Assembly: GCA_014380365.1 (NCBI GenBank)
Contig: JACMJZ010000001.1
Location: forward strand, 1-64,000
From: Pyrinomonadaceae bacterium
GTDB taxonomy: Bacteria > Acidobacteriota > Blastocatellia > Pyrinomonadales > Pyrinomonadaceae
Direction of reading: 5' to 3'
DNA: 64,000 nucleotides
The position numbers were made by a program, and so were the translations under genes. The notes beneath the pieces were generated by a model. It was not told the origin of the DNA and did no database searches. It worked only from the letters and a program-made list of their open reading frames with translations. Every line of letters begins with the position of its first letter. Position 1 is the stretch's first letter. This document shows, one piece after another, positions 18,291 to 32,459 of the stretch.

Positions 18291-18516
18291 TTTCATTCGA
18301 CGCTGCTCTGAAGATGGCCCTCAGATGCTCACTGCGCTTGCAGAGTGAGCTGCATTGGCCCTAGTTCGGTACTGCCATGGCCTGTCGTCCCCAGTGAGGA
18401 ATAACTATCTGCATCTTTGCTTAAGGGTCAAAGGTGCAAATGGATAATTGAGTTCCTTTATCAAAGGCCAGAGCCATGGTTTTCGATTAAGTCAGTTAAC
18501 TAAGAAGGGTATATCA

Positions 18517-19671
18517 ATGTCTTATCTACATCCTGTCACAGTCGCCACTCCACAACGATCACATCAGGAGATGCTTAAAGATCATAAGCAGATCCTGCAA
18601 AACTATCTTGACACCTTCATCATGCGCGGACTAAGCCGAAAAACAATAGATGGAGTCACTTGGTTCATCGAGCGCTGGTTTGAAAAAACTCGCGTTTGTG
18701 ACGAGAGCGGTGAGCGTCAGATTTTCATTTGGCAAGTGATGAACCTAGGCGAAGGGCGCAAGCGTATCAAGGAATTCTTAATGACGCTCAGCGCCCTCGA
18801 TGACGACAACAAAGTTTGTCTGCGGGCAAGTACAGTAAGGGCTTACGCGGGCCACCTCGAGCGCCTGTTTGTTTACACAACGGCGTTTCCATTCATAGAG
18901 GGGCTGCAAACAATCTCATCCAAATACGGCCCAATCGACAATCCATTCACTGGCGTCGAGTACCCTATCCATAGTCGTGATCACTTGCGCTCCGAAAGGT
19001 TTTTTCTGACGCCGGACCAGATTTTGGGCCTGCTCGTCTTCCTACGGGAAGTCTATCCCACCCTGACGCGTAGGAATTCTACTGCGGGACGGCTCTATAC
19101 GATAATAATGCTAATCACTGAGACCGGTATGCGCTGCGTTGAAATGATCAATCTCGACGCTCTCGGCGCAGACAGGGACATCTTCTATAACAAAGGAATC
19201 ATACAGACACGTTACGGCAAGGGACACAACTCATCTGGCCCTCAGACGCGGTTGATTCCCTTGACAGATCCTGCCGAAATCACGCTCAAGCAATACGAAC
19301 GAGAAGTGCGGCCGCAGTTCCGCAATCAGCTGATTGATCCGGCCCTGTTCCTGACTTCGAGCGGCAAAAGACTCTCTTACCCCACTCTGCGAGACACCTT
19401 TACACGAGTCATTAAGCTCGCCCGCAAGCATGGCGTCGACCTTCCGCCGAATCTGACGCTACACGACCTGCGCGCAAGTTTCGCCACTAATTACCTTGAG
19501 GCAAATCCCGATCAATTCGGCGAATTGATGGAATTACTCGGGCACGTCAGCTCCTCGTCAACGCGCCTCTATATCAGATCCAGGGGCAAGCACAGGATGT
19601 CGTCAATGAAGAAAGCGCGTGCACCCAGGTCAAGCAGGACGGGTTTCGGTGTGATGGTCTACAACACTTAG
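18517..19671 (+). CDS. Tyrosine recombinase, first gene of a transposition-type trio
   Basis: From ATG 18517 (AAGAAGGG about 8 bases upstream) the protein has 384 residues. It carries a full tyrosine-recombinase set: Arg near 206 (TETGMRCVEM), His and Arg near 316-319 (LHDLRASFATN), His near 342 (LLGHVSSSS) and Tyr near 352 (STRLYIRS). The N-terminal 170 residues should bind the core site. The next two genes follow with gaps of 4 bases each, so the three are one operon. The set of one canonical recombinase, a small protein and one large recombinase-like protein recalls Tn554 TnpA/TnpC/TnpB and the GInt modules, but gene order and the zinc ribbons differ. A TTG 23 codons upstream is a less likely start. 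Confidence 0.88.
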   Translation: MSYLHPVTVATPQRSHQEMLKDHKQILQNYLDTFIMRGLSRKTIDGVTWFIERWFEKTRVCDESGERQIFIWQVMNLGEGRKRIKEFLMTLSALDDDNKVCLRASTVRAYAGHLERLFVYTTAFPFIEGLQTISSKYGPIDNPFTGVEYPIHSRDHLRSERFFLTPDQILGLLVFLREVYPTLTRRNSTAGRLYTIIMLITETGMRCVEMINLDALGADRDIFYNKGIIQTRYGKGHNSSGPQTRLIPLTDPAEITLKQYEREVRPQFRNQLIDPALFLTSSGKRLSYPTLRDTFTRVIKLARKHGVDLPPNLTLHDLRASFATNYLEANPDQFGELMELLGHVSSSSTRLYIRSRGKHRMSSMKKARAPRSSRTGFGVMVYNT

Positions 19672-19675
19672 AAGG

Positions 19676-20116
19676 ATGAATACCTACGTGTGGAAAGTTA
19701 AAGAAATAGCGGCAAAGAGCCATCGGATCACGACCGCGGTTCAGCTTAAGGCATTTATTGAGGAGAACTTGGGAGTGATCGTTACCGTGCAAACTCTAAG
19801 GGCGCTAATGCGAGGCTCGCCAGTTGCACCGCGTGTAGAAATGATTCAACTGTTCTGCGATGCCTTCAATTGCCGTTCTGAGGCTTTCTACGTTTTCACT
19901 CCGAATGCTGCCAGAGCACAGCAGTGGGAGAAAGACAGGTCGGAAGGTAAGAAGGCATCACCCTTATATCAACCTAAAGCCAGCCCTCTCGATGAGATTG
20001 TGAAAGTGCCAGACGAGACTATTCAAGGTGAGAGCGCGGGGAAGCCAAAGTCCTTACGGGCTACGTTCACCGACCCAAGAACGCTCTACAAAGACAGATT
20101 GATATCCAAGGAGTAA
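19676..20116 (+). CDS. Small XRE/Cro-type HTH protein of the recombinase trio
   Basis: The 146-residue protein has a Cro/C1-like HTH over about residues 5-72. Helices are readable in VKEIAAKSHRI, AVQLKAFIEENL, TVQTLRALMRGSP and RVEMIQLFCDAFNCRSEAFYVF, the last being the usual XRE ending. The C-terminal half is charged and probably disordered. It starts 4 bases after the recombinase gene and ends 4 bases before the large zinc-ribbon gene. It may be the operon repressor or an accessory DNA-binding factor that positions the two recombinases, as small third proteins do in other multi-recombinase elements. It is not a known toxin or antitoxin. Confidence 0.75.
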   Translation: MNTYVWKVKEIAAKSHRITTAVQLKAFIEENLGVIVTVQTLRALMRGSPVAPRVEMIQLFCDAFNCRSEAFYVFTPNAARAQQWEKDRSEGKKASPLYQPKASPLDEIVKVPDETIQGESAGKPKSLRATFTDPRTLYKDRLISKE

Positions 20117-20120
20117 CGAA

Positions 20121-22058
20121 TTGAGTAACACATACAGTAGAAGGCCTTTTGTTGAGTGCAAGCGATGTCACAACCGCCGAAAGACCGTGTTGCTCGGGCA
20201 AATGATTTGCCAATGGTGCCATCGGAAAGAGCCGAAGACGAACTGCGGCGTCTGTGGCAAACAAAAACGGTTCGTGACGGATGGAGGTGGAGTTTGCCCT
20301 GAGTGCACTAAGAGAGCTTCAGTACCTACAGAGATAGAATGTGCCGGGTGCGGAAAGAAGAAACGACCGGCGAAGCGAGGCGGCAAATACTGCAAGCCAT
20401 GCCAGATGAGGGTGAATTGTGGTAGGGGGGTATGCTCAGGCTGCACAAGGGACCAGAAATATGTACACAAGACGAAGAGACTCTGTCAGCGCTGCGCTTT
20501 GAATCACTGGGCGCCGAATCGTCTACGAACCCTTATTGAAACGATAAGGATATCGGGCAAGTACAACCTAGCTCTATTTCGTCACCTCACTGGGTTAATC
20601 AATTGGGAGAGGGTCAACGACGAGGATCGCCTCCGGATCTATGATTTCGGCAGATTCCTCCAAAGTCACAAGTTCGAAGAGCCACTCTCATGGGGAAGTA
20701 TCCGCGAATTAAAAGCCGAATTATCGGGCGCGAAGTTCCGGTGTGTGCGCTCCTGTCTTGAGCAACTCGGCGAACTCCTGCTAGACCCAGCGAAAGACGA
20801 GGACTTGGAAGAGTGCCTGAGCGGGATCAACCCCCTCGTTCCCATTGCCTCCCTGCATGCGGATGTCATCGCAGTCTTAAAGAAATACGATCTCTGGCTC
20901 CGCACCGAGCGAAAGAACACCCCTAAGAGCAGGCGCAACCACTTCGACACGTTGGGTGGTTTCTGGAGGTGGAGCGCCACCCGAGGATTGATGTCGCTTG
21001 ATATGGTCAAAGCCACGCATGTCGAAGAATATCTACATACACTCGGGCTGAAATGGAAGTGTCGCCGCTGCTCTTTCACAAAGAACTTAACCAGCAGAGG
21101 CGAAGTTCCACCGAGCGCGTGCGAAAATTGGGAGTGCCGCGCGCTCGACTCCTATGAAAAGGTGATTCGTTGCGTAGAACGTTCGGTAGACAGGCACCGC
21201 GCTGGGCTCCGCGTCTTTTTTGGTTGGCTCAAAGACGTTGAAGAAGGGATCGAATTAAACCCTGCGCCGGCAGCTGAGAGGAGGAGGACGAGGAAGAAGA
21301 AGAGAGGCTGGAGACGAAAGAGAAAGGCTACAGCTACCATTCAGTATTACGACTGGGAAGTGATCGATGCCCTCTTGAAAGACATCGAAGAGCCGAATGC
21401 GCCGGCCGGGGAGGCGATGGCGCTGTATTTCCTCCTCCACCACGCTTTCTATTTGAGGGAACTCCAGACTGTACGAATCCCTTCGCAATGTCGACCGATA
21501 GCGCTCGGTGCGGCACCGCGGGAGTCGTTGGAAGATGTTCTCAGCCTCGAATGGCGACAACGGGAACTGTCGAGAAAGAGACAGTTTCTCGGTCGGACCG
21601 GAGAGATGCTGCAGATGGAACCAGCAGACGAGCCGTGGTTGCGAGATTTGGTTGTGCGATTCATACGAGAACGTAATCAGAAACTACGAGATCCAAAAAA
21701 CCCATACCTATTCGTCGGGACCCGTGGAAGCTCTCGCAGCGGACCCGTAGGCGGCCGATATATCCGTTCCTTGGTCGAGAGTGCCACCGCCCGCATTACG
21801 GGAAGATTATGCACGGCCAACATATTGGGTAAGTCTTCCAGGCTTCTCTACGCAGAGTTCGGGGGACATGAAGGCTTTCGGCATTTACGGGAACTTGGTT
21901 TGGGAGGCTCCCAAGCGCACACCTACGCATGGGCTAAACGAGTGAGGATGGTTCCCAAGCCAGCCAATCGAACCAAGAAGAAAGATGTTAGGCGGCGAGC
22001 ATCGGGTCTGACGGTTCCGCTGATAGATGTTTTCGGTATTCCAACCGACCTCGAATAG
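20121..22058 (+). CDS. Large zinc-ribbon protein with a degenerate tyrosine-recombinase domain
   Basis: The 645-residue protein starts at TTG 20121, with AAGGAG at 20108-20113. Its first 125 residues hold about ten CxxC pairs in short zinc ribbons (CKRC, CQWC, CGVC, CPEC, CAGC, CKPC, CSGC, CQRC). Another ribbon lies near 313-340. The C-terminal 200 residues line up with tyrosine recombinases: an Arg near 448 (FYLRELQTV), a final Tyr near 600 (AHTYAWAKR), and a Box II that reads GKSSR near 570 instead of HxxR. The His has thus become Lys, a replacement tolerated in some recombinases. It may bind element ends through the ribbons and work with the first recombinase. Confidence 0.78.
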   Translation: MSNTYSRRPFVECKRCHNRRKTVLLGQMICQWCHRKEPKTNCGVCGKQKRFVTDGGGVCPECTKRASVPTEIECAGCGKKKRPAKRGGKYCKPCQMRVNCGRGVCSGCTRDQKYVHKTKRLCQRCALNHWAPNRLRTLIETIRISGKYNLALFRHLTGLINWERVNDEDRLRIYDFGRFLQSHKFEEPLSWGSIRELKAELSGAKFRCVRSCLEQLGELLLDPAKDEDLEECLSGINPLVPIASLHADVIAVLKKYDLWLRTERKNTPKSRRNHFDTLGGFWRWSATRGLMSLDMVKATHVEEYLHTLGLKWKCRRCSFTKNLTSRGEVPPSACENWECRALDSYEKVIRCVERSVDRHRAGLRVFFGWLKDVEEGIELNPAPAAERRRTRKKKRGWRRKRKATATIQYYDWEVIDALLKDIEEPNAPAGEAMALYFLLHHAFYLRELQTVRIPSQCRPIALGAAPRESLEDVLSLEWRQRELSRKRQFLGRTGEMLQMEPADEPWLRDLVVRFIRERNQKLRDPKNPYLFVGTRGSSRSGPVGGRYIRSLVESATARITGRLCTANILGKSSRLLYAEFGGHEGFRHLRELGLGGSQAHTYAWAKRVRMVPKPANRTKKKDVRRRASGLTVPLIDVFGIPTDLE

Positions 22059-23123: not shown

Positions 23124-23360
23124 CTAGAAAGCTAGTGCCGTCAGTAACGCAGAAAGGGCAGCATCCGTTACTTGCTGTGCAAACCCACTTGTGGGGATGT
23201 CGCCCGGCGCAAACTGTGTGTTGTCTGGCAGAGTCTGACTTGTTATTTGGTTCGTTGCCGGAGGCGGTGGCGAGGGAGCGCCACTAGTGGGTATGTCGCC
23301 GGCAACAGCCGAGACGGCCAGGATGCACGTCAAGGACACCGCTGATAGAAATCGCTTCAT
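23124..23360 (-). CDS. Small secreted peptide with two GDIPTSG motifs
   Basis: The 78-residue precursor starts at ATG 23360, with AGGAGA 6 bases upstream. It has a classic signal peptide (MKRFLSAVSL, hydrophobic core, cleavage likely after SAVA at residue 20). The mature part of about 58 residues begins GDIPTSGAPSPPPP, repeats GDIPTSG after QFAP, and ends in a hydrophobic helix DAALSALLTALAF. The gene is divergent from a TPR regulator, and the space between holds repeated palindromes. From memory, similar small proteins occur in Blastocatellia genomes beside such regulators. I know of no assigned function. A secreted signal is the hypothesis; a structural envelope peptide is the alternative. 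Confidence 0.7.
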   Translation of the reverse strand: MKRFLSAVSLTCILAVSAVAGDIPTSGAPSPPPPATNQITSQTLPDNTQFAPGDIPTSGFAQQVTDAALSALLTALAF

Positions 23361-23387
23361 GGGTTGTCTCCTAGTCAAGGTTGGTGA

Positions 23388-23492
23388 TGCAAGAACTCTT
23401 ACATGAAAGGAGAATAACGCAGTATCGGGAAGTTCTTGCAAGGCTTAGAGGAGGCAGCTAATATTCGCGCGTAATTTGCAAGGTTCCTTGCA
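23388..23492. promoter_or_regulatory. Array of TTGCAAG palindromes in the divergent promoter region
   Basis: TGCAAGAACT (23388-23397) and AGTTCTTGCA (23431-23440) form a perfect 10-base inverted repeat. The second arm continues into CTTGCAAG (23435-23442), itself a perfect palindrome. A third site is TGCAAGG-TT-CCTTGCA (23477-23492), an inverted repeat with a 2-base centre just before the regulator gene. Spacings are near 40 bases, about four helical turns. This looks like a multi-site operator for one dimeric regulator acting on both genes. Confidence 0.7.
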
Positions 23493-23516
23493 CTCATCTT
23501 GAAGGGAAATCCTCCC

Positions 23517-25007
23517 ATGAAGACGGCCTCGCCAAAGTTAGACCAATCTTTCCTGATAACGAATGATGAAGCACTTCGGCGTTGTCAGACTGCTCTAGAC
23601 CTTAGAGATAGGAGCGACTACGAGGGCGTTCGCCGAGTAATGCACCCCTTGTGGAAGCGTGTGGGCGAGCATCCTGAGGTTAAGGGCCTTGAGCCTCCGG
23701 TTGTGGCGGAACTCCAGTTGTGCGTTGGAATATTGACGAGTTGGCTCGGTAGTAAAGAAGGGATTGAGGAATCACAAGAGGTCGCTAAAAATCTAATTAG
23801 CAAAGGAATCACATTCTTTGAATTGGTAGGAGATATGCATAAAGTTGCTGCCTCAAGGGCTGAGATTGCTTACTGCTATTTTCGCGAAGGTGCTTTGAAT
23901 GAAGCCCGAATCATGCTTACCGAAGCGCTTCAAAACCTGCCTACGGAAGGGAACACCAGAGCTCGAGCCCTGCTGAAGTTAATAACGGTCGAGTGGTCGG
24001 CTTCTAGATATAACGTCGCCTTATCAATCCTTACCGAAAATGCTTACCTTTTCAAGAAGGTTACCAATCATACGACCAGAGGGAATTATCACAATGAACA
24101 TGCGATCGTTCTTAGACATCTAGCCAAGTCGGATCCTTTGAAGAGAGACGATCTCTTACAACAGGCAATCAGAGAATTTAAGGCTGCTGATCATCACTTT
24201 CGGTTGGCCAAAAACAAAGTCTTTCAGGCTACTGTCAAAAATAACCTTGGACTCATCTTCTTTAACCTGTCTCGATTCAAGGACGCGCACAGCTATATGG
24301 CTGAAGCTCGAAGACTCGCGGTGAGTGTTAGAGAGAAAGCCATGATAGCTCAGGTTGATGAGAGTCGAGTGCAAGTGTTAATTGCGCAAAGAAAGCTCAA
24401 GGAAGCGGAATTCGTTGGCCGTGGCGCTGTTCGAGCGTTGGAAAAAAGCGGACATCAATGCCTATTGGCCGAAGCGCTTACCACATATGGTATTGCCCTT
24501 GCGCGGCTGGGCAAGACAGATCAAGCTCAGTTTAATTTTCAACGTGCGGTGGAGGTGGCGCATCAGGTTGGCGCGCTCAACAAAGCGGGGCTTGCAGCAC
24601 TGACAATGATTGAGGAGTTGGATGACTTGTCGCGAACGACCTTGCAGTGTTCCTTTCAGCGCGCCAGCGAGTGGCTGGCTAACGCGCAGAGCATGGAATT
24701 AGTGGCGAGGTTCACTGCAGCTGCCAACAAAGTGTATGTGGCTCTGAATGGTGAAGTGACTTCCGAAGAAGCTACGGAAGCTCTGGTCAACAAGCCATTT
24801 GATCTTCATGAGGAAGTGCTGAAGCTTGAGAACGCTTTAATTCGACATACGCTGGCGAAGGTGAATGGAAGCCTCACCCGCGCCGCCGAACAGATGGGGA
24901 TGACCTATCAGGGTCTGGCTTACATCATTCAGTCTCGGCACCCGAAGTTGCTCAAGGAGCGCTCGCCAGTGCGTCGTCGCTCGCCGAGGAAAGGCAAGCG
25001 AAGTTAG
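23517..25007 (+). CDS. TPR-repeat regulator with C-terminal Fis-type HTH
   Basis: The 496-residue protein starts at ATG 23517, with GAAGGGA about 10 bases upstream; a TTG six codons earlier is less likely. Most of it is helical repeats of TPR type, for example ARIMLTEALQNLPTEGN, AIREFKAADHHFRLAKN and ALARLGKTDQAQFNFQRAVEVA. The C-terminal 60 residues contain a Fis-like HTH (LIRHTLAKVNGSLTRAAEQMGMTYQGL, near 440-470) and a basic tail. Gram-positive peptide-receptor regulators (RRNPP family) also join TPRs to an HTH, but with the HTH first. No kinase or receiver domain is visible. The divergent secreted-peptide gene and shared palindromes suggest it controls, and perhaps senses, that peptide. 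Confidence 0.78.
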   Translation: MKTASPKLDQSFLITNDEALRRCQTALDLRDRSDYEGVRRVMHPLWKRVGEHPEVKGLEPPVVAELQLCVGILTSWLGSKEGIEESQEVAKNLISKGITFFELVGDMHKVAASRAEIAYCYFREGALNEARIMLTEALQNLPTEGNTRARALLKLITVEWSASRYNVALSILTENAYLFKKVTNHTTRGNYHNEHAIVLRHLAKSDPLKRDDLLQQAIREFKAADHHFRLAKNKVFQATVKNNLGLIFFNLSRFKDAHSYMAEARRLAVSVREKAMIAQVDESRVQVLIAQRKLKEAEFVGRGAVRALEKSGHQCLLAEALTTYGIALARLGKTDQAQFNFQRAVEVAHQVGALNKAGLAALTMIEELDDLSRTTLQCSFQRASEWLANAQSMELVARFTAAANKVYVALNGEVTSEEATEALVNKPFDLHEEVLKLENALIRHTLAKVNGSLTRAAEQMGMTYQGLAYIIQSRHPKLLKERSPVRRRSPRKGKRS

Positions 25008-25262: not shown

Positions 25263-28200
25263 ATGAAGTCCTCAAATCGCCCTGCTTCCAGAATATCTAC
25301 CCGATTGATCTCGTTGACGCTCTGCTCTTCGCTGCTGGCCGTTTCGCTTTCGCCAATCTGGGTGGAGGGCGCAGGACGACCTCTGCCACCGCGTAAGTCG
25401 GGGCAGGAGGGTGCCAGGCCGAGGAGCGGAGCGCCGGAAGGAGTTTTCCCGAATCTCGATGAGGTGAAGAGTCGGGCGCCTGCACGGCCGCGTGCACCGC
25501 AGGCCATACCTTCAACGGCGCGTTCGCGGCGTAAACCGCTCGTACCGAGAAACGGAAGACGTGTTGGTGACCCCTTGCCGATACCGTCGCCGGTCCCATC
25601 GCCTCGCACCTCGCCGCTTCCTTCACCTCTCCCGTCGCCACCACGGCTCGGCGCAGCCCAAGGCGTGGAGCGGGTCATGATGGGTAATCTGCTTGCCTGG
25701 AACTTCTCCCCGGACTCGTCATTCGGTTATCAGTTATTTGCTCGAGGCGGAGTGCTTTCTGATTCGCCGCTATCGCCCGCGTTTCATTCCGGGACAGATG
25801 TTCGCTTCCACCCCGGCTTTGATTTCTTCGCGATGCCCATGCCGCAAGCGGGAAGCTCAAAAATAGTCTTCACCAGCAATCGCGATGGTAGCGCGCAGAT
25901 CTATTCCATGAACGTCGATGGCAGCAGTCTGACTCGCCTTACGACCAATGCTTACAACGACGATCACCCACGCTGGTCGCCTAACGGCACGAAGATCCTC
26001 TTCCAGAGCGACCGCGACAATCCCGAGACTGGCAACTACGACATTTACGTCATGAACGCCAACGGCACGAGCCAGACTCGATTGACTTACGATGCTACCG
26101 ACGACAGTGCGGCGGAGTGGTCGCCTGACGGCAGCAAGATCGTTTTCCAGAGTTTGCGCAACGGACAGTTCTATCAGGTTTACGTGATGAATGCCGACGG
26201 CACGAACCAGGCAAACACTAGCGGCGGCTTTGCACCGGACTATCAGCCTTCGTGGTCGCCTAACGGTGCGAAGATCGCTTTTGCCAGCGAACGGGATCAT
26301 GCCGGACGCCCGAGTGTTTATGTAATGAAAGCCAATGGCTCGAACCAGACCAGATTAACTTTCACTGGCGAGCCATTCCGTGACGAACAGCCAGCCTGGT
26401 CGCGTGATGCCACTAAAATCGCTTTCGTCAGTACGCGCGATAGCGTCATTGAGACGTGGCAGGAAACAGATGATGAGGGAGGAATACTGAACAGGAGTCG
26501 TGTACGCACGAATAAAGAAGTCTATAAGATGAATGCGGATGGCAGTAATCAGATTCGGCTAACCACCACACTCGAAAACGACGATTCACCCTCCTGGTCC
26601 CCCGACGGCACCCAGATCGTCTTTCGCAGTGATCGCGAGCGCGACGCTTATGACCCTACTCAACAACTCTGGACGATGATCGCGGATGGCACGAGTCAAG
26701 CACTCATCAGTAGTAATGACTTTGGCGATTACAGTCCCAGTTGGAAGGCGACCAGTAATCAACCGCCTCTGGCAAACGGAGGCGGGCCTTATTCGGGTCT
26801 CAGCGGGTCATCGATTCAGTTCAACGGCGGCGGCTCATTTGATCCGGATGGCGCGATCGCGAGCTACCAATGGAACTTCGGCGATAATACCAGCGGCGCG
26901 GGAATAACCCCGACGCACTCTTATTCGACGGCTGGTAGCTACACGGTCACGCTGACAGTCACAGACAACGACGGCGCGACCGCGAATGCCACTGCCACCG
27001 CAACTGTTGCCAACAATCCGCCGGTTGCCAATCCGGGCGGGCCGTATAGCGGCGTAACTGCGCAAAACATTCCCTTCAATGGTTCCGGGTCCTCCGATTC
27101 GGACGGCACGATCACTAGTTATGCGTGGAGCTTTGGAGATGGCGGCACGGGTTTGGGCGCTGTGCCTACGCACGCTTACACCTCCGCCGGCACGTACACA
27201 GTTATGCTAACCGTCACGGACAATCAGGGCGCGCAAGCCAGCGCCAACACCAGCGTCACCATAACCGTCGCGGGCAGCGAGCAGTATCTGGCAAACTTCA
27301 ACCAAGCGGCGTTGGCGCGGGGGCTTTATCCGAATGAATCCGCTTACTGGAACGACCTCTTGCGCGCGGCTTACGCAAACGGTCAGAACTCAATGTTGTT
27401 GGCAGTGCGCGAGCTGGGGAAAACGCTCTTTGAATCTTCGTACTATGCGGCGCGGTTGGACCGACAAGGAACCCAACACGATGTCGACTACGTTTACGAC
27501 TTATATAAGACCTATCTCATGCGCGAGCCTGACGCGCCGGGGTGGGCCTTCTGGACAGATCAATGTGAGTTTTACGGACGCGAGAATGTGCGCCGGGCGT
27601 TTGATGAAAGCGGGGAATTTGCGGGTATTGTGGCCACCTTGACGCCTAGCGGTTCGCCATCGAGCGCGGTCTCGTCGTTCGCGTCCGCTCGGGTCGACCG
27701 CTTCAACCAACCGGGGAATGGTTTAGCGTCTCGAGATGCCGAGTGGAGCGTGCCGCTGTTGAGCTTACCTGGAAGAGCGGGACTGGATCTGGGGCTAAGC
27801 CTTTCTTACTCGTCAATGGTATGGACGCGTTCAGGTCCCTACATTTATTTCGATGAAGACAATGGTTGGCCGAGTCCCGGCTTCCGCTTAGGGTTCCCCA
27901 CGATTCAGGAGAAAGTCTTCGACGCACAGGCAGGCGACAATGTGTATCTGCTTATCTCAGGCAACCGAGTCTCACTCAGACAAGTAGGAACATCGAACGT
28001 TTACGAAGGAGCCGACTCATCTTATTTGCAGTTGATTGACAACGGCGGCAGTCTCTTACTGCGGGCGACAGACGGCACGCAGCTTGGTTATTCGAAGTTC
28101 AATAACGAGTGGCACTGCATGCAAATCAAAGATCGCAACGGCAATTACATCACGGTCAACTACGATTGGCTCGGACACATTACGACGATCATAGATACCC

Positions 28201-31200
28201 TTGCCCGCACCATCACCTTTAACTACGACACGAATGCGAATCTGACTTCGATAACTCAAAGTTGGACGGTTAATGGCGTGCCGACAACTCATACCTGGGC
28301 CACCTTCGGTTGGACCAATATGGCAGTGAACACAAGCTTCTCAGGTGTGATGGGGGTGGGTGCGCCAAATGGCTCGACAATTCCGGTGCTCAGTCAGGTT
28401 GGGCTAGGCGACGGCTCACGCCATACGTTTGAATACTCAACCGCTGGCCAGGTTTCAATCATCAAGCGCTTCGCTCAACCCTCGGACAACACGCCCAGGG
28501 CATACGTGGCTTACGACTACGAATATTTAGCCGCGGATTGTCCGCGTCTCTCGGCTACCCGAGTGGCCGCCGAAAACTGGACCGGTATCAATGGCGTACC
28601 GAGCGAAGTAGTCACGCAGTATGGTGTTGAGGGCAGCGCGCACACACTTACTGTCGTAGGTGATCCGAATAGTACGCTTTACAAGGAGTTCTATGGAGCG
28701 GGCTGGCAGCGAGGACTAACAACTCAAACTGAAGTTTGGTCTGCCGGAGTCAAACAGAAGTGGACCAGTAACAACTGGACGCAGGACAACACAGGCGTTA
28801 ACTATAAAACAAACCCGCGTGTCACAGAGTCGAACGTCTACGACTCTGGAGGCAATCATCGCCGCACAACGATTGATTACCAGACTTTCACATTACCGAG
28901 CGGCGTGAGTTGCAGTCTGCCTAGCGACATGCGCGAGTACGCTGGGGACGCGAGCACAATCTTGCGGCGCTCGCATACCAACTACCTCATGGACCCGGTT
29001 GCCGACGCGGCTTACCTATCTCGCCACATCATCGGTCTGGTAAAGGAACAAAGCCTCTTTGAAGTCAACACAAGCGGCGAAACGCTCATGTCCAAAGTAG
29101 GTTTTCAGTATGACGACACGGGCTCGATCCAAGGCACGGGTGCGCCCGTCGGGCATGACAACTCTTATGATGGCAACTTCGTTGCAGGCCGTGGGAATCT
29201 CAGCAGCGTGAAGCGGTACAATGTGATTAACAGTGGGCAGTGGACAGTGAGCAGTGTGCAGTACAACACAGCGGGTGCGGTGGTCGCGAGCATTGATCCA
29301 CTCTCGCATCGAACCACGATCAGCTACGCCGATTCATTTTCTGACGGCAATAACAGCCGCAGTACGCTAGCCTATCCCACCACGGTTACTGACGCGGATG
29401 GCTTTTCCTCGACCGTCACGTACAACTTTGATTTCGGCGCGGTAACGCGTAAACAAACTCCCCAGCCAAATACGATTGCGAACCTGCCCGGGCCAGTGCA
29501 GACATTCCTTTACGACGCAGCCGGACGAATTGAGAGGATAACGGCGACGACCAACGGCGCTTACCAGCGCTTCGTCTATGGGCCAAACTATGTGCAACAA
29601 TTTGGCAGCGTCAATAACCTCGCCGACGATTCGTCTGCGATTCAAGTGTTCGATGGCACGGGCCGGGTTTTCGCGAGTGCCAGTGCTCATCCCGGCAGCA
29701 CGGGCGGCCGCAGCGCCATCTACTCCATCCATGACGCGATGGGTCGCAGGACAATGCAATCAAACCCGACCGAGATTAACGGCGATTGGGTTCCGGTGGG
29801 GGATGATGCGACCGGCTGGCTGTTTACGCAACAAACTTACAACTGGCAGGGAAAGCCCCTAGTGACAACAAACACTGACGGCACTACCAAAGAAGCGAGC
29901 TATAGCGGTTGCGGCTGCGCCGGCGGCGAAGTGGTAACGCTCGCGGATGAGGTTGTGATACTTCCGCCCCAAAGCGGTGGGGGAGTTATGTCGCCGGACC
30001 GAAGGAAACGGAAAGTACACGCTGACGTGCTGGGACGCACAGTGAAGAGCGAGATACTGAACCGCGACGGCACTCCTTACATGACGACGGTTACCGAATA
30101 CAACGCCCGCGATCAGGTCAAGGCGGTCAAAGAGTACAAAGGCGCGGCTGTCAACGGGTCATGCCCCGCAACGACTTGCCAGCAAACGACGACCGAATAC
30201 GACGGTTACGGCAGGTTGAAAAGGCGTCATTTGCCCGAGCAGAACGCTGGCGCAGTGACCACTTGGAGCTACAACAATGATCACACCGTTGATAAGATCA
30301 CGGACGCTCGCGGCGCTTCAAGAACCTTTGGCTACAATGCCCGCCGTCTCGTCACAAGCATCACCTACGCATGGCCGGGAGGAGGCACAGTTCCGACGCC
30401 CGCCAGCTTTGGTTACGACGCCGCTGGGAACCGCACCTCAATGACAGACAGCACTGGTAGCGTCACTTATCACTATGACCAGCTCTCGCGGATGGATTGG
30501 GAAGAGCGCACTTTTGCCGGTCTCTACGGTGCAACATATCGTCTCACCTATGGCAGCTATAATCTTGCTGGGCAGTTGACGAGCCTCGCCGAACCCAGCC
30601 AGTTTGGATCGAGTGTTGGTTACGGTTATGACGAGGCAGGTAGATTGGAAGAGGTCACAGGTTCGAGCTTTCCTGACGGAGTTGCGTCTGAACTCAAGTA
30701 TCGTGCCTCGGGTGCTCTTAAGGAAATGAGTTACGGCAATGGTTCGCGGCTGAACAACAGTTTCAACTCAAGACTGCAAATAACCAGTTACCAGGTGAAA
30801 GTGCCCGGCACCCCCGTGGGGCAGGACGAGGCCGCGCGAAGCGAATACGAGTATGATGCAGGCGGGCGGATCACACGGGCTTACGACCGCACCGATCCCG
30901 GTTTTGACCGCTCATACCTCTACGACCTTGTCGGGCGGTTGATGAGTGCGTCCACCGTCAATTCAGCGTACTACCAAAATTTTAGCTATGACGAGTTCGA
31001 CAACCTCACCGTTCGCAGCAATGGCTCGTGGCGCTACCACGACACCACGCTGATGCAGTATGCGAACAACCGCAACATCAGCACGACGGTCTACCCTAAC
31101 GGCGTCCAGCCGAGGACCAGTTACTGGGTTTACGATGCTGACGGCAACGTGACCAACGATCACAACAAGCAATACACGTACGATGCCGCAGGGAACAAGC

Positions 31201-32459
31201 GGCTGGTGTTTGAGAATACCGATACGAGATCGCTATGGCTCCACCAGGACTACGACGCTGATGGCGAGCGGGTGAAGCGCGTCGAGCAAAACCTACCCGC
31301 CGGCGGCGTATTGTCCACGGTGACCAGCTACTATCTGCGCTCCAGCGTGCTGGACAGCGTGGTAGTTGAATTGGACCAAAACGGGCAGAAGCGCGAGAGC
31401 TACGTCTATGCGAACGGAGTTGTGATCGCACAGCAGAAGAACAATCAGGTGCAATGGGTCCACGTTGATCCTGTGACGGCAAGCCTGCGCGAGACCAATG
31501 GCTTGCGACGCGAGGTTGACCCGCTGGGGAACGACGCGCCTCTGTCGGACCCGGCACCGCCCGACGAGGCGACGCCCGATTACCTCTACACCGGCACCTA
31601 CGGCAACAGCGGCAACAACCTGGATACTCAGTCGGGGTGTTCGATAGACGGTCAACCAATGGACTGTAGCTTTGCCGTGAGATTAGTGAGCATGGGCGTA
31701 GCGGCGCAATGCCCGGACAATCGCTGCGGGCCACGACATAATGGCAACAGCTGGGAATTCTGGAATGCATCTACCGGTTGGGTGGCATCTAACGTACGGA
31801 AAAGGAAGCCGCCTAAGCTAAAATTCCTAACAAAAGGTGAACTTGCAGAGATGAAAAGGATAAAGAAACAAGGAGGAATAAATCCTTCCGGTGGAGGCGA
31901 CGATGAGAACTCACCGTTTGATGTCGGCACCATCACTACGAGGGTGTCGGCGGCCCTTGCCACGCCAGAATGCATTGAGTTTTATAAGACAGTTCTCAAC
32001 GGCGTTTCGAATAAGAGTAATCCCGTGTTGCACGGGGGTGATCTGCGGCAGATATTTACCGGCTTTCTCGGACAACCGAACGGAGGCTTTACCCGACGCC
32101 AACCTCCTGGAGCCAGCGGACCTGCGAACGGGAATGCTTTCGGAATAATCGGTAGTAAAAACTACCCGGCAGGAATTTACCTCAACGAGAGCAGTTTGCG
32201 CCTTCAAAATTTCTGGGATGCTTTCTTTACAGTTGGAGAGCTATTCCACGTGGCTGGGTCGAAAGGAACGTATTCTGATGAAGCGTTGTCTAAATTCATT
32301 CACAACCACACTAAATATGCGGATCGAGAAGATGAACTCTTCCGGCCCGAAGAGAACATCTTCAGCCCGCGCTATACAAACCAGAAGGATGGCGATGAGT
32401 ATGGCTACAGCAGTTACTTTCATCGAATTCAGCAGAGCATATGCTTTGTTCCTCGTTGA
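25263..32459 (+). CDS. Giant RHS/YD-repeat secreted protein with PD40, PKD and DUF4214 modules
   Basis: The 2398-residue protein has an N-terminal signal peptide (hydrophobic core LISLTLCSSLLAVSL). A proline-rich linker follows, then a TolB/PD40-like propeller (about 198-496, repeats of WSPDGTKI..S.R type), two PKD domains (about 499-671, FNGGGSFDPDG and WNFGDN), a DUF4214 domain (about 673-793) and a long YD-repeat shell (about 815-2110, YDAAGNRTSMTDS, YDQLSRM). RHS shells enclose a C-terminal toxin. Here the tail (2113-2398) is distinct and contains VGELFHVAG at 2325-2329, which resembles a metallopeptidase HExxH motif with its first His replaced by Gly. The toxin may therefore be inactive or of another kind. 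Secretion by Sec, then shell release, is the likely route. Confidence 0.88.
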   Translation: MKSSNRPASRISTRLISLTLCSSLLAVSLSPIWVEGAGRPLPPRKSGQEGARPRSGAPEGVFPNLDEVKSRAPARPRAPQAIPSTARSRRKPLVPRNGRRVGDPLPIPSPVPSPRTSPLPSPLPSPPRLGAAQGVERVMMGNLLAWNFSPDSSFGYQLFARGGVLSDSPLSPAFHSGTDVRFHPGFDFFAMPMPQAGSSKIVFTSNRDGSAQIYSMNVDGSSLTRLTTNAYNDDHPRWSPNGTKILFQSDRDNPETGNYDIYVMNANGTSQTRLTYDATDDSAAEWSPDGSKIVFQSLRNGQFYQVYVMNADGTNQANTSGGFAPDYQPSWSPNGAKIAFASERDHAGRPSVYVMKANGSNQTRLTFTGEPFRDEQPAWSRDATKIAFVSTRDSVIETWQETDDEGGILNRSRVRTNKEVYKMNADGSNQIRLTTTLENDDSPSWSPDGTQIVFRSDRERDAYDPTQQLWTMIADGTSQALISSNDFGDYSPSWKATSNQPPLANGGGPYSGLSGSSIQFNGGGSFDPDGAIASYQWNFGDNTSGAGITPTHSYSTAGSYTVTLTVTDNDGATANATATATVANNPPVANPGGPYSGVTAQNIPFNGSGSSDSDGTITSYAWSFGDGGTGLGAVPTHAYTSAGTYTVMLTVTDNQGAQASANTSVTITVAGSEQYLANFNQAALARGLYPNESAYWNDLLRAAYANGQNSMLLAVRELGKTLFESSYYAARLDRQGTQHDVDYVYDLYKTYLMREPDAPGWAFWTDQCEFYGRENVRRAFDESGEFAGIVATLTPSGSPSSAVSSFASARVDRFNQPGNGLASRDAEWSVPLLSLPGRAGLDLGLSLSYSSMVWTRSGPYIYFDEDNGWPSPGFRLGFPTIQEKVFDAQAGDNVYLLISGNRVSLRQVGTSNVYEGADSSYLQLIDNGGSLLLRATDGTQLGYSKFNNEWHCMQIKDRNGNYITVNYDWLGHITTIIDTLARTITFNYDTNANLTSITQSWTVNGVPTTHTWATFGWTNMAVNTSFSGVMGVGAPNGSTIPVLSQVGLGDGSRHTFEYSTAGQVSIIKRFAQPSDNTPRAYVAYDYEYLAADCPRLSATRVAAENWTGINGVPSEVVTQYGVEGSAHTLTVVGDPNSTLYKEFYGAGWQRGLTTQTEVWSAGVKQKWTSNNWTQDNTGVNYKTNPRVTESNVYDSGGNHRRTTIDYQTFTLPSGVSCSLPSDMREYAGDASTILRRSHTNYLMDPVADAAYLSRHIIGLVKEQSLFEVNTSGETLMSKVGFQYDDTGSIQGTGAPVGHDNSYDGNFVAGRGNLSSVKRYNVINSGQWTVSSVQYNTAGAVVASIDPLSHRTTISYADSFSDGNNSRSTLAYPTTVTDADGFSSTVTYNFDFGAVTRKQTPQPNTIANLPGPVQTFLYDAAGRIERITATTNGAYQRFVYGPNYVQQFGSVNNLADDSSAIQVFDGTGRVFASASAHPGSTGGRSAIYSIHDAMGRRTMQSNPTEINGDWVPVGDDATGWLFTQQTYNWQGKPLVTTNTDGTTKEASYSGCGCAGGEVVTLADEVVILPPQSGGGVMSPDRRKRKVHADVLGRTVKSEILNRDGTPYMTTVTEYNARDQVKAVKEYKGAAVNGSCPATTCQQTTTEYDGYGRLKRRHLPEQNAGAVTTWSYNNDHTVDKITDARGASRTFGYNARRLVTSITYAWPGGGTVPTPASFGYDAAGNRTSMTDSTGSVTYHYDQLSRMDWEERTFAGLYGATYRLTYGSYNLAGQLTSLAEPSQFGSSVGYGYDEAGRLEEVTGSSFPDGVASELKYRASGALKEMSYGNGSRLNNSFNSRLQITSYQVKVPGTPVGQDEAARSEYEYDAGGRITRAYDRTDPGFDRSYLYDLVGRLMSASTVNSAYYQNFSYDEFDNLTVRSNGSWRYHDTTLMQYANNRNISTTVYPNGVQPRTSYWVYDADGNVTNDHNKQYTYDAAGNKRLVFENTDTRSLWLHQDYDADGERVKRVEQNLPAGGVLSTVTSYYLRSSVLDSVVVELDQNGQKRESYVYANGVVIAQQKNNQVQWVHVDPVTASLRETNGLRREVDPLGNDAPLSDPAPPDEATPDYLYTGTYGNSGNNLDTQSGCSIDGQPMDCSFAVRLVSMGVAAQCPDNRCGPRHNGNSWEFWNASTGWVASNVRKRKPPKLKFLTKGELAEMKRIKKQGGINPSGGGDDENSPFDVGTITTRVSAALATPECIEFYKTVLNGVSNKSNPVLHGGDLRQIFTGFLGQPNGGFTRRQPPGASGPANGNAFGIIGSKNYPAGIYLNESSLRLQNFWDAFFTVGELFHVAGSKGTYSDEALSKFIHNHTKYADREDELFRPEENIFSPRYTNQKDGDEYGYSSYFHRIQQSICFVPR

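Follow-up and report, generated by a model that had tools for sequence, protein, structure and literature searches.

Does a small secreted protein that carries the same seven-residue motif twice, and that is encoded back to back with a regulator built of tetratricopeptide repeats (TPRs) and a helix-turn-helix (HTH), represent a peptide signal beside its receptor? The question is raised by positions 23124 to 25007 of a 64,000-nucleotide stretch of DNA (the window; positions 1 to 64,000 of contig JACMJZ010000001.1, assembly GCA_014380365.1) from a Pyrinomonadaceae bacterium of the phylum Acidobacteriota. The initial annotation had called the two genes a candidate peptide-signalling pair, and as a candidate the pair holds, given the pairing of the two genes across relatives, the rarity of unpaired peptides, the enrichment of palindromes in the gaps and the fold predicted for the regulator by comparison with VIA-align. 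The two-gene unit looks like an apparently unreported peptide-signalling system, and we consider it probable that it works like the RRNPP systems, with inverted domain order and in a diderm phylum.

The secreted peptide precursor gene (23124..23360, minus strand), assigned from its sequence and from homologous precursors beside relatives, encodes 78 residues with the layout MKRFLSAVSLTCILAVSAVA|GDIPTSG...GDIPTSG...ALSALLTALAF, where the bar marks the predicted cut. A Sec-type signal peptide is predicted at residues 1-20 (23301..23360, minus strand; sequence and a simple script score) with cleavage at AVA|G, and among 32 aligned precursors A20 is invariant and G21 is present in at least 90%. 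The first GDIPTSG copy (residues 21-27; 23280..23300, minus strand) is the predicted mature N-terminus; it is followed by a Pro-rich linker (23205..23279, minus strand; from the sequence and the 32-precursor alignment), the second copy (residues 53-59; 23184..23204, minus strand) and a hydrophobic or amphipathic C-terminal tail ending in ALSALLTALAF (23127..23183, minus strand), of a type common across the family. The open reading frame (ORF) bears out the earlier description of a 78-residue precursor with a clean signal peptide and two GDIPTSG motifs. Over an 8-codon window, copy 2 departs from copy 1 by three synonymous differences and one amino acid change, which falls directly after the motif and not inside it.

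The divergent TPR-HTH regulator (23517..25007, plus strand) has 496 aa counted from an ATG; the mechanical ORF (23499-25007, plus strand) opens with a TTG and has 502 aa, and the alignment of relatives begins at the ATG at 23517. Pfam returns mainly TPR models (TPR_12, E 2.3e-11) plus HTH_8. The TPR superhelix spans about residues 60-386 of 496 (23694..24674, plus strand; AlphaFold model and Pfam TPR matches), and the Fis-type HTH is given by the HTH_8 match (24825..24923, plus strand; residues 443-475 of 502, E 3.6e-4, 20.6 bits). This score is slightly below the 22-bit cut-off of Pfam, and the three sister proteins scanned (L002, L003 and L006; L numbers are our locus labels) all score above it. 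The annotated arrangement is confirmed: the precursor gene and the gene for a TPR protein that ends in a Fis-type HTH run in opposite directions.

Functional pairing of the peptide with the TPR sensor is near certain. Among loci of the same GTDB family, 82 of 86 sensors have a divergent secreted-peptide ORF within 300 bp, whereas the controls have one in 20 of 342 cases (p 4e-63 by Fisher's test); at 1100 bp the counts are 83/86 and 44/342, most of the control ORFs looking like chance. Sensors were counted when they had at least 400 aa and at least 500 bp of upstream sequence, which left out three loci with short upstream regions and fragments below 400 aa, and the controls were mechanical ORFs of 200 aa or more from those loci, without restriction to divergent gene pairs. 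A simple script, which looked for a hydrophobic stretch and an AxA-like cut, was used in place of SignalP to call signal peptides and their cleavage points, and the cuts at L098 and L103 are plainly off. No peptide was recognised at L011, L076 and L111 in this set. An enlarged set, which overlaps the first and omits six short-upstream loci and fragments below 500 bits, has 102 of 108 sensors paired within 700 bp; it was passed through the same tail filter that had removed eight ORFs before. The six misses comprise L043, whose peptide is 502 bp away, L156, a frame-broken receptor with an adjoining peptide, and four sensors that show none (L076, L111, L253 and L204, the last with unread bases upstream). 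From receptor ORF start to peptide start the median distance is 138 bp, and because the 102 pairs form 72 clusters at a TPR distance of 0.3, the pairing is not one lineage counted repeatedly. Diverged relatives with 160-259 bits to the profile (L278-L292) had a peptide in 15 of 15 inspected loci, including those with a TPR-only architecture or an unnamed C-terminal domain. In a check of further sensors, for which two rows were short of upstream sequence and L297 gave no row, L149 and L295 were paired, the two testable genes of L293 were a paired one of 796 aa and an unpaired one of 923 aa, and L294 had no peptide.

The association also holds in the reverse direction. In seven whole genomes, 40 of 41 matches to a peptide profile (E <=1.2e-5) have a sensor no further than about 1.1 kb away; the profile was built from 32 precursors, and with the 13 matches that were profile rows removed, the count is 27 of 28. 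The cut was placed where matches break off: the next one (G067:C18:316, 1.6e-4) belongs to a secreted peptide that sits where its contig stops and cannot be judged, and those after it lie inside long ORFs. The paired matches include tandem precursors (three at G009:C17, two at G009:C22 and two at G029:C33) and one that adjoins the strongly diverged TPR-HTH of L149. The profile is incomplete, with no such match at the sensors of L076, L111 and L253 in the searched genomes. A neighbourhood not conserved in relatives would have told against the proposed pair; what was found is a pairing that is near-universal among inspected loci, with secreted-peptide genes adjoining TPR sensors above chance and with few strong peptide matches away from a sensor.

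The host genome (4.98 Mb, searched at E 0.001) contains seven TPR sensors, each with a divergent secreted peptide. Six are full-length TPR-HTH genes, that of the window and five at 52-61% identity to it, and the seventh is a diverged TPR protein (31%, 812 aa); a fragment adjoins one full-length copy. The motifs of the six TPR-HTH pairs are GDIPTSG twice (window), GDIPSVG/GDIPSDG, GDMHGDG/GDIPTSD, GDVHTPE, GDVPSGD and GDIPTCG twice. The 812-aa sensor consists of TPR, HisKA-HATPase and receiver domains, and its divergent peptide has five tandem GNITSR[TA] units.

Across 102 precursors (50-94 aa, median 78), the first mature residue at the script-chosen cut is G in 83, followed mostly by D/E and then I/M, with T/S frequent at position 5 and P/G at position 6; in most, the motif is followed by a Pro-rich linker and a conserved, hydrophobic C-terminal tail. 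The first 7-mers are distinct in 99 of the 102, have a median mass of 711 Da and in no case a net positive charge. Within a precursor the motif recurs: in 50 of 102, a stretch of 4 or more residues comes back unchanged (35 of 72 by cluster), compared with 4.2 +/- 2.0 (maximum 11) in 200 shuffles, and a first 7-mer finds 4.17 identities in the rest of its own precursor compared with 2.57 in other precursors (p 2e-10). In the 48 precursors with near-identical copies, the codons compared were identical in 165 cases, synonymous in 160 and nonsynonymous in 44, the last count being biased low because windows were chosen for amino acid likeness. Hence 160 of the 325 same-amino-acid codon pairs differ synonymously, and such codons are identical in 51% between copies compared with 37% in random draws. 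Silent sites have thus drifted far between copies while the peptide stayed alike. Regular tandem precursors also stand beside the long-output sensors L153, L293 and L295, with five GNITV, GTISTTRT-type and five GDLGTD units, respectively.

The peptide goes with the TPR domain, which in the family is joined to at least four outputs. The window protein (its HTH_8 match being slightly under the cut-off) and the three sisters scanned are TPR plus HTH_8; L056 adds a receiver to these (L057 has the receiver and no HTH_8 match at that threshold); L087, L082, L103 and L112 combine TPR with a sigma-54 AAA+ module and HTH_8; L007/L043 join TPR to HisKA-HATPase-receiver; and L280 has nothing recognised after the TPR. 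Since the TPR domain is what stays constant beside the peptide, it is the likely sensor. Separate receiver-like genes lie near some receptors, and the one scanned (L103:4791) is a Response_reg protein. In the diverged sensors L279, L282 and L283, the last 140 aa or so have no Pfam match (...ILGKIVGV...); we guess that they may form a peptidase-like fold.

The AlphaFold model of the window protein, built with 55 relatives, has a mean pLDDT of 91.0. Aligned with VIA-align to 955 chains, this predicted model has Rap or NprR at all of ranks 1-8 (Z 29.3-27.7 over about 340-354 residues): phage Phi3T Rap, RapF, the Rap-CSF complex, phage Phi105 Rap and apo NprR, the Rap entries among them naming a peptide in their titles. 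The best match, 8rtc_B, has Z 29.3 over 347 residues with an rmsd of 5.3, and next after Rap and NprR come APC/C chain O (Z 27.0), LGN (26.1) and MalT (26.0, domain III); a family missing from this list is not thereby excluded. A profile search of PDB sequences picked up RapI at E 7e-4, along with many generic TPR proteins. By VIA-align, then, the predicted TPR fold is nearest to the Rap and NprR pheromone receptors, and the proposal that TPR plus HTH is a peptide-sensing architecture, here with the HTH at the opposite end, agrees with an N-terminal TPR domain, a C-terminal output and this modeled likeness.

The space shared by the two genes contains two operator-like palindromes, TGCAAGAACTCTTACA (23388..23403), which adjoins the peptide start, and TGCAAGGTTCCTTGCA (23477..23492), which adjoins the regulator start; both match TGCAAGRNNYCTTRCA exactly. 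Between them, in mid-gap, lies a CTTGCAAG core (23435..23442), an 8-mer enriched in gaps. Exact TGCAAGRNNYCTTRCA occurs at four places in the host genome, all pair gaps (C2:72935, C5:480396 and the two in the window), which is partly by construction, since gaps from the genus of the host had been looked at before the pattern was drawn up. One mismatch adds three more gap sites and seven places elsewhere (background), and that scan gave 11 rows compared with 14 matches of the backward pattern. Statistics were restricted to gaps of at least 100 bp, leaving out 21 of 102, with 348 upstream regions as controls. Within two mismatches, TGCAAGRNNYCTTRCA is found in 25/81 gaps and 4/348 controls, and CTTGCAAG in 23/81 and 2/348. 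In the 69 gaps that were unviewed before the pattern was written, the former is present in 13 (p 3e-8) and the latter in 14 (2/348 controls; p 3e-10). The shared palindromic space that suggested a single control circuit is seen both in the window and, by enrichment, in pair gaps, including unviewed ones. Its natural reading is autoregulation, in which the Fis HTH would act on the gap palindromes. No sigma-70 promoters or terminators were found in the gap, a result that is uninformative.

Taken with the RRNPP/RRNPPA systems (Rap-Phr, NprR-NprX, PlcR-PapR, Rgg-SHP and AimR-AimP), the pairs share a small Sec-exported propeptide gene adjoining the receptor gene, a cytoplasmic TPR receptor whose superhelix is predicted closest to Rap/NprR by VIA-align, several pairs per genome, a DNA-binding or signalling output and mobile copies. 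They differ in that the output is C-terminal here and N-terminal there, consisting here of a Fis-type HTH, receiver, sigma-54 AAA+ or histidine kinase; in the divergent arrangement and the diderm Acidobacteriota host, as opposed to Firmicutes; and in motif copies that start at the signal-peptidase cut with a hydrophobic tail after them. The domain order that defines RRNPPA starts with an HTH or three-helix bundle at the N-terminus and has the TPR domain C-terminal to it; this order was tested for and is not the one found here, and for this reason we do not file the pairs as RRNPP members; most likely they work like them. MalT and AfsR also join a TPR sensor to a DNA-binding output (MalT domain III, Z 26.0, and a weak AfsR match); they respond to other ligands, and we know of no secreted peptide paired with either. 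The sigma-54 enhancer-binding proteins with a Fis HTH resemble our sigma-54-type members, which carry AAA+ and Fis HTH, and differ in that the sensor here is a peptide-linked TPR domain and that the window protein and its own-genome sisters are without an AAA+ module. Large peptide-receptor repertoires per genome, above 25 in some species, are reported for Paenibacillus (PMC7425212), in that case in a Gram-positive host. Rap-Phr propeptides with several pheromone copies are known from an excerpt of PMC11343458. The evolutionary study of RRNPPA, in its excerpted text, concerns Firmicutes and receptors with the HTH at the N-terminus (PMC9765709), and RRNPP_detector, as described in part of PMC10075063, was run on Firmicutes and viruses and drops clusters with an N-terminal TPR, which may be why the present system was missed so far. 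Among the matches listed from the open-access literature, preprints excepted, none described a system of this kind in Acidobacteria, Blastocatellia, Pyrinomonadaceae or Gram-negatives.

Sequence and predicted structure together make peptide signalling by TPR binding likely. The precursor would be exported by Sec and cut at AxA|G, and further proteolysis might free peptides of about 6-8 residues, one per repeat (for the window GDIPTSG, 645 Da). These would be taken up again, for example through an Opp/Dpp importer, to be bound by the TPR superhelix of the regulator from the adjoining gene; SBP_bac_5 genes of the Opp/Dpp type occur in 5/5 genomes searched, with three in the host genome. Binding may alter, in either direction, the activity of the C-terminal Fis HTH on the intergenic palindromes and perhaps on other targets, each pair would carry its own code, and in relatives the same TPR sensor would act through other outputs, namely an HTH with a receiver, a sigma-54 AAA+ module with an HTH, or a histidine kinase with a receiver. 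The odds that the circuit serves cell-cell or quorum signalling as such are, in our estimate, about even; it may depend on cell density. An NCBIfam search with three of the peptides gave, for one, two weak matches far below the cut-off (PhrK pheromone, E 0.06; TigB, E 0.07).

Several observations weigh against this reading. Five of the sensors examined (L011, L076, L111, L204 and L253) have no recognised peptide, and one strong host peptide, G000:C7:77562 (L148:5048-5332), has no adjacent sensor; 52 of 102 precursors are without an exact repeat of at least 4 aa, and the palindrome is absent at two mismatches from 56 of the 69 unviewed gaps. TPR superhelices resemble one another, so a common fold is no proof of function, and Foldseek alone puts LGN first and Phi3T Rap (Rap3T) only at rank 22. 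Groove conservation was dropped as a line of support, conserved polar residues not being enriched in A helices (15/141) relative to B helices (13/140). Co-variation of motif and TPR domain as proof of specificity is unsupported overall: the two distances correlate with rho 0.08 (0.05 as a partial on the signal peptide; permutation 0.138), and it is the C-terminal tail (rho 0.51) and the signal peptide (0.36) that track TPR distance. Motifs are alike only at short range, with 4.2 of 7 identities below a TPR distance of 0.2 (15 pairs), 2.5 at 0.2-0.3 and about 1.7 beyond 0.45. We read this as a putative fast-changing private code, although the tail may be the ligand instead. A peptide in a diderm cell must also cross the outer membrane. 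Among the genes up to four places away from the receptors, no family, few of them being named, turns up at more than 14 of 113, and thus no linked protease, exporter or importer was seen. The L148 precursor has tandem GDVSTPGIT/GEIGTPGVT/GDVLTPG-type repeats, five G-D/E-[VI] repeats in all; the gene adjoining it we take to be a pyruvate phosphate dikinase, and the precursor might signal to a sensor elsewhere.

Part of this evidence would fit an explanation that we consider unlikely, namely that the small protein is an envelope component or secreted effector (adhesive, antimicrobial or a modified peptide of ribosomal origin) and that the TPR-HTH protein is only its local regulator and senses something else. 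A divergent gene and regulator with a palindrome in many gaps suits simple local control, the hydrophobic or amphipathic tail and the Pro-rich spacer suit such a product, fast-changing motifs are expected of antagonistic peptides as well, and it is the tail, not the motif, whose divergence tracks that of the TPR domain. Yet the peptide accompanies the TPR domain across all outputs, be they HTH, HTH-receiver, sigma-54 activator or hybrid kinase, and even in TPR-only relatives; no common maturase, exporter or immunity gene accompanies the pairs at the 14/113 level given above, where most families are unnamed, and copies that are alike within and different between precursors suit a ligand better than a structural protein.

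The behavior of the tail raises a second alternative, to our mind an improbable one, in which the hydrophobic C-terminus is itself the ligand and the GDIPTSG-type motif serves elsewhere, in extracellular specificity or protease recognition. In its favour are the correlations given above (tail 0.51, motif 0.08) and the comparison with pheromones that are short and hydrophobic; the mature signal lies at the C-terminus in most RRNPP propeptides, according to part of PMC10075063, and a related TPR-HTH from another family is accompanied by small hydrophobic peptides in place of such precursors. Tails are nevertheless alike across many receptors of one family and so leave little private specificity, their likeness may mirror shared ancestry since the signal peptide also tracks the TPR domain, and the repeats are kept despite synonymous change. 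A third reading seems very unlikely to us, in which the circuit monitors the cell itself without cell-cell signalling and its receptor responds internally to secretion stress or to precursor that has not been exported: a divergent pair with palindromes, a sensor without a signal peptide and the lack of a linked import gene would all agree with it, but private repeated motifs after a cleavage site are left unexplained.

Sensors of this type are widespread in the host family (Pyrinomonadaceae-like, class Blastocatellia), where 60 of 99 genomes in 26 of 29 genera match at E <=1e-10 with up to 13 sensor matches each, fragments counted; genus g9 contributes a match in only 1 of 21 genomes. A single-protein scan of a contig collection gave no relatives, and the scan repeated with an alignment gave 121 loci, of which 80 were kept, the records being labeled as metagenome-assembled genomes of Pyrinomonadaceae, Blastocatellia, Acidobacteria/Acidobacteriota (some "gp4") and Chloracidobacterium sp. 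In a phylum-wide draw at E 1e-40, with only the first few candidates per genome scored, 5 of 297 genomes match, all of the host family; class-wide at 1e-20, 42 of 118 match, and three of the 42 belong to other families; among nine further genomes 6 of the 7 from outside match at 1e-10. Of 12 outside-family loci, 11 were inspected; eight have no complete central ORF and two only an overlapping other ORF, which leaves L299 as the one locus really tested, a TPR-HTH gene with divergent peptides. In another family of the class, a TPR-HTH gene (L310:3194-5580; G224:C31) is divergent from five tandem hydrophobic peptides of 33-37 aa and of the form MNKIKQQLGQIDPITLLLALLLALGTGACPI, a second precursor type beside a related receptor; its orthologues L312 and L313 have one similar 36-aa peptide each, and the distant paralogues L314-L318 have none alike.

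A universal third gene was sought within four genes of the receptors and rejected, there being none. An unnamed same-strand gene recurs upstream at 13 of 113 receptors, and another lies directly downstream on the same strand at 14 of 113 (L075:4656-6296 and 13 further loci); the one downstream member scanned has DsbA-like thioredoxin and SurA/PPIase-like domains, which may matter for peptides rich in Cys or Pro. In the window, the regulator is followed by a 2398-aa PD40/PKD/DUF4214/RHS-repeat protein (25263-32459), and 11 of 113 receptors, that of the window included, have a gene similar to this RHS-type giant no more than four genes away. Upstream of the pair is a three-gene cassette (18448-22058) consisting of a Phage_integrase protein (18448-19671), a 146-aa ORF without a Pfam match and a 645-aa protein with only subthreshold matches to zinc-ribbon and integrase SAM-like domains. 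Five viral contigs from IMG/VR (L319-L323) encode the sensor, each with a divergent secreted peptide; among ten nearby ORFs scanned, an integrase lies near the pair in L320 and L322, and a virion structural protein and a DNA methyltransferase in L319. These viral pairs parallel the carriage of Rap and AimR on mobile elements, as an excerpt of PMC11343458 describes it.

What the pairs may amount to is peptide communication on a large scale in diderm Acidobacteriota, in parallel to RRNPP, with up to about 10 private secreted codes per genome, plug-in outputs and phage copies like arbitrium in Bacillus phages, a view that we hold to be evenly balanced between true and false. Re-imported peptide pheromones read by TPR receptors have been described for Firmicutes. 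If the view is correct, it would provide a handle on communication in a major phylum of soil bacteria, difficult to cultivate, and perhaps in their phages, together with dozens of ready peptide-receptor pairs for specificity testing.

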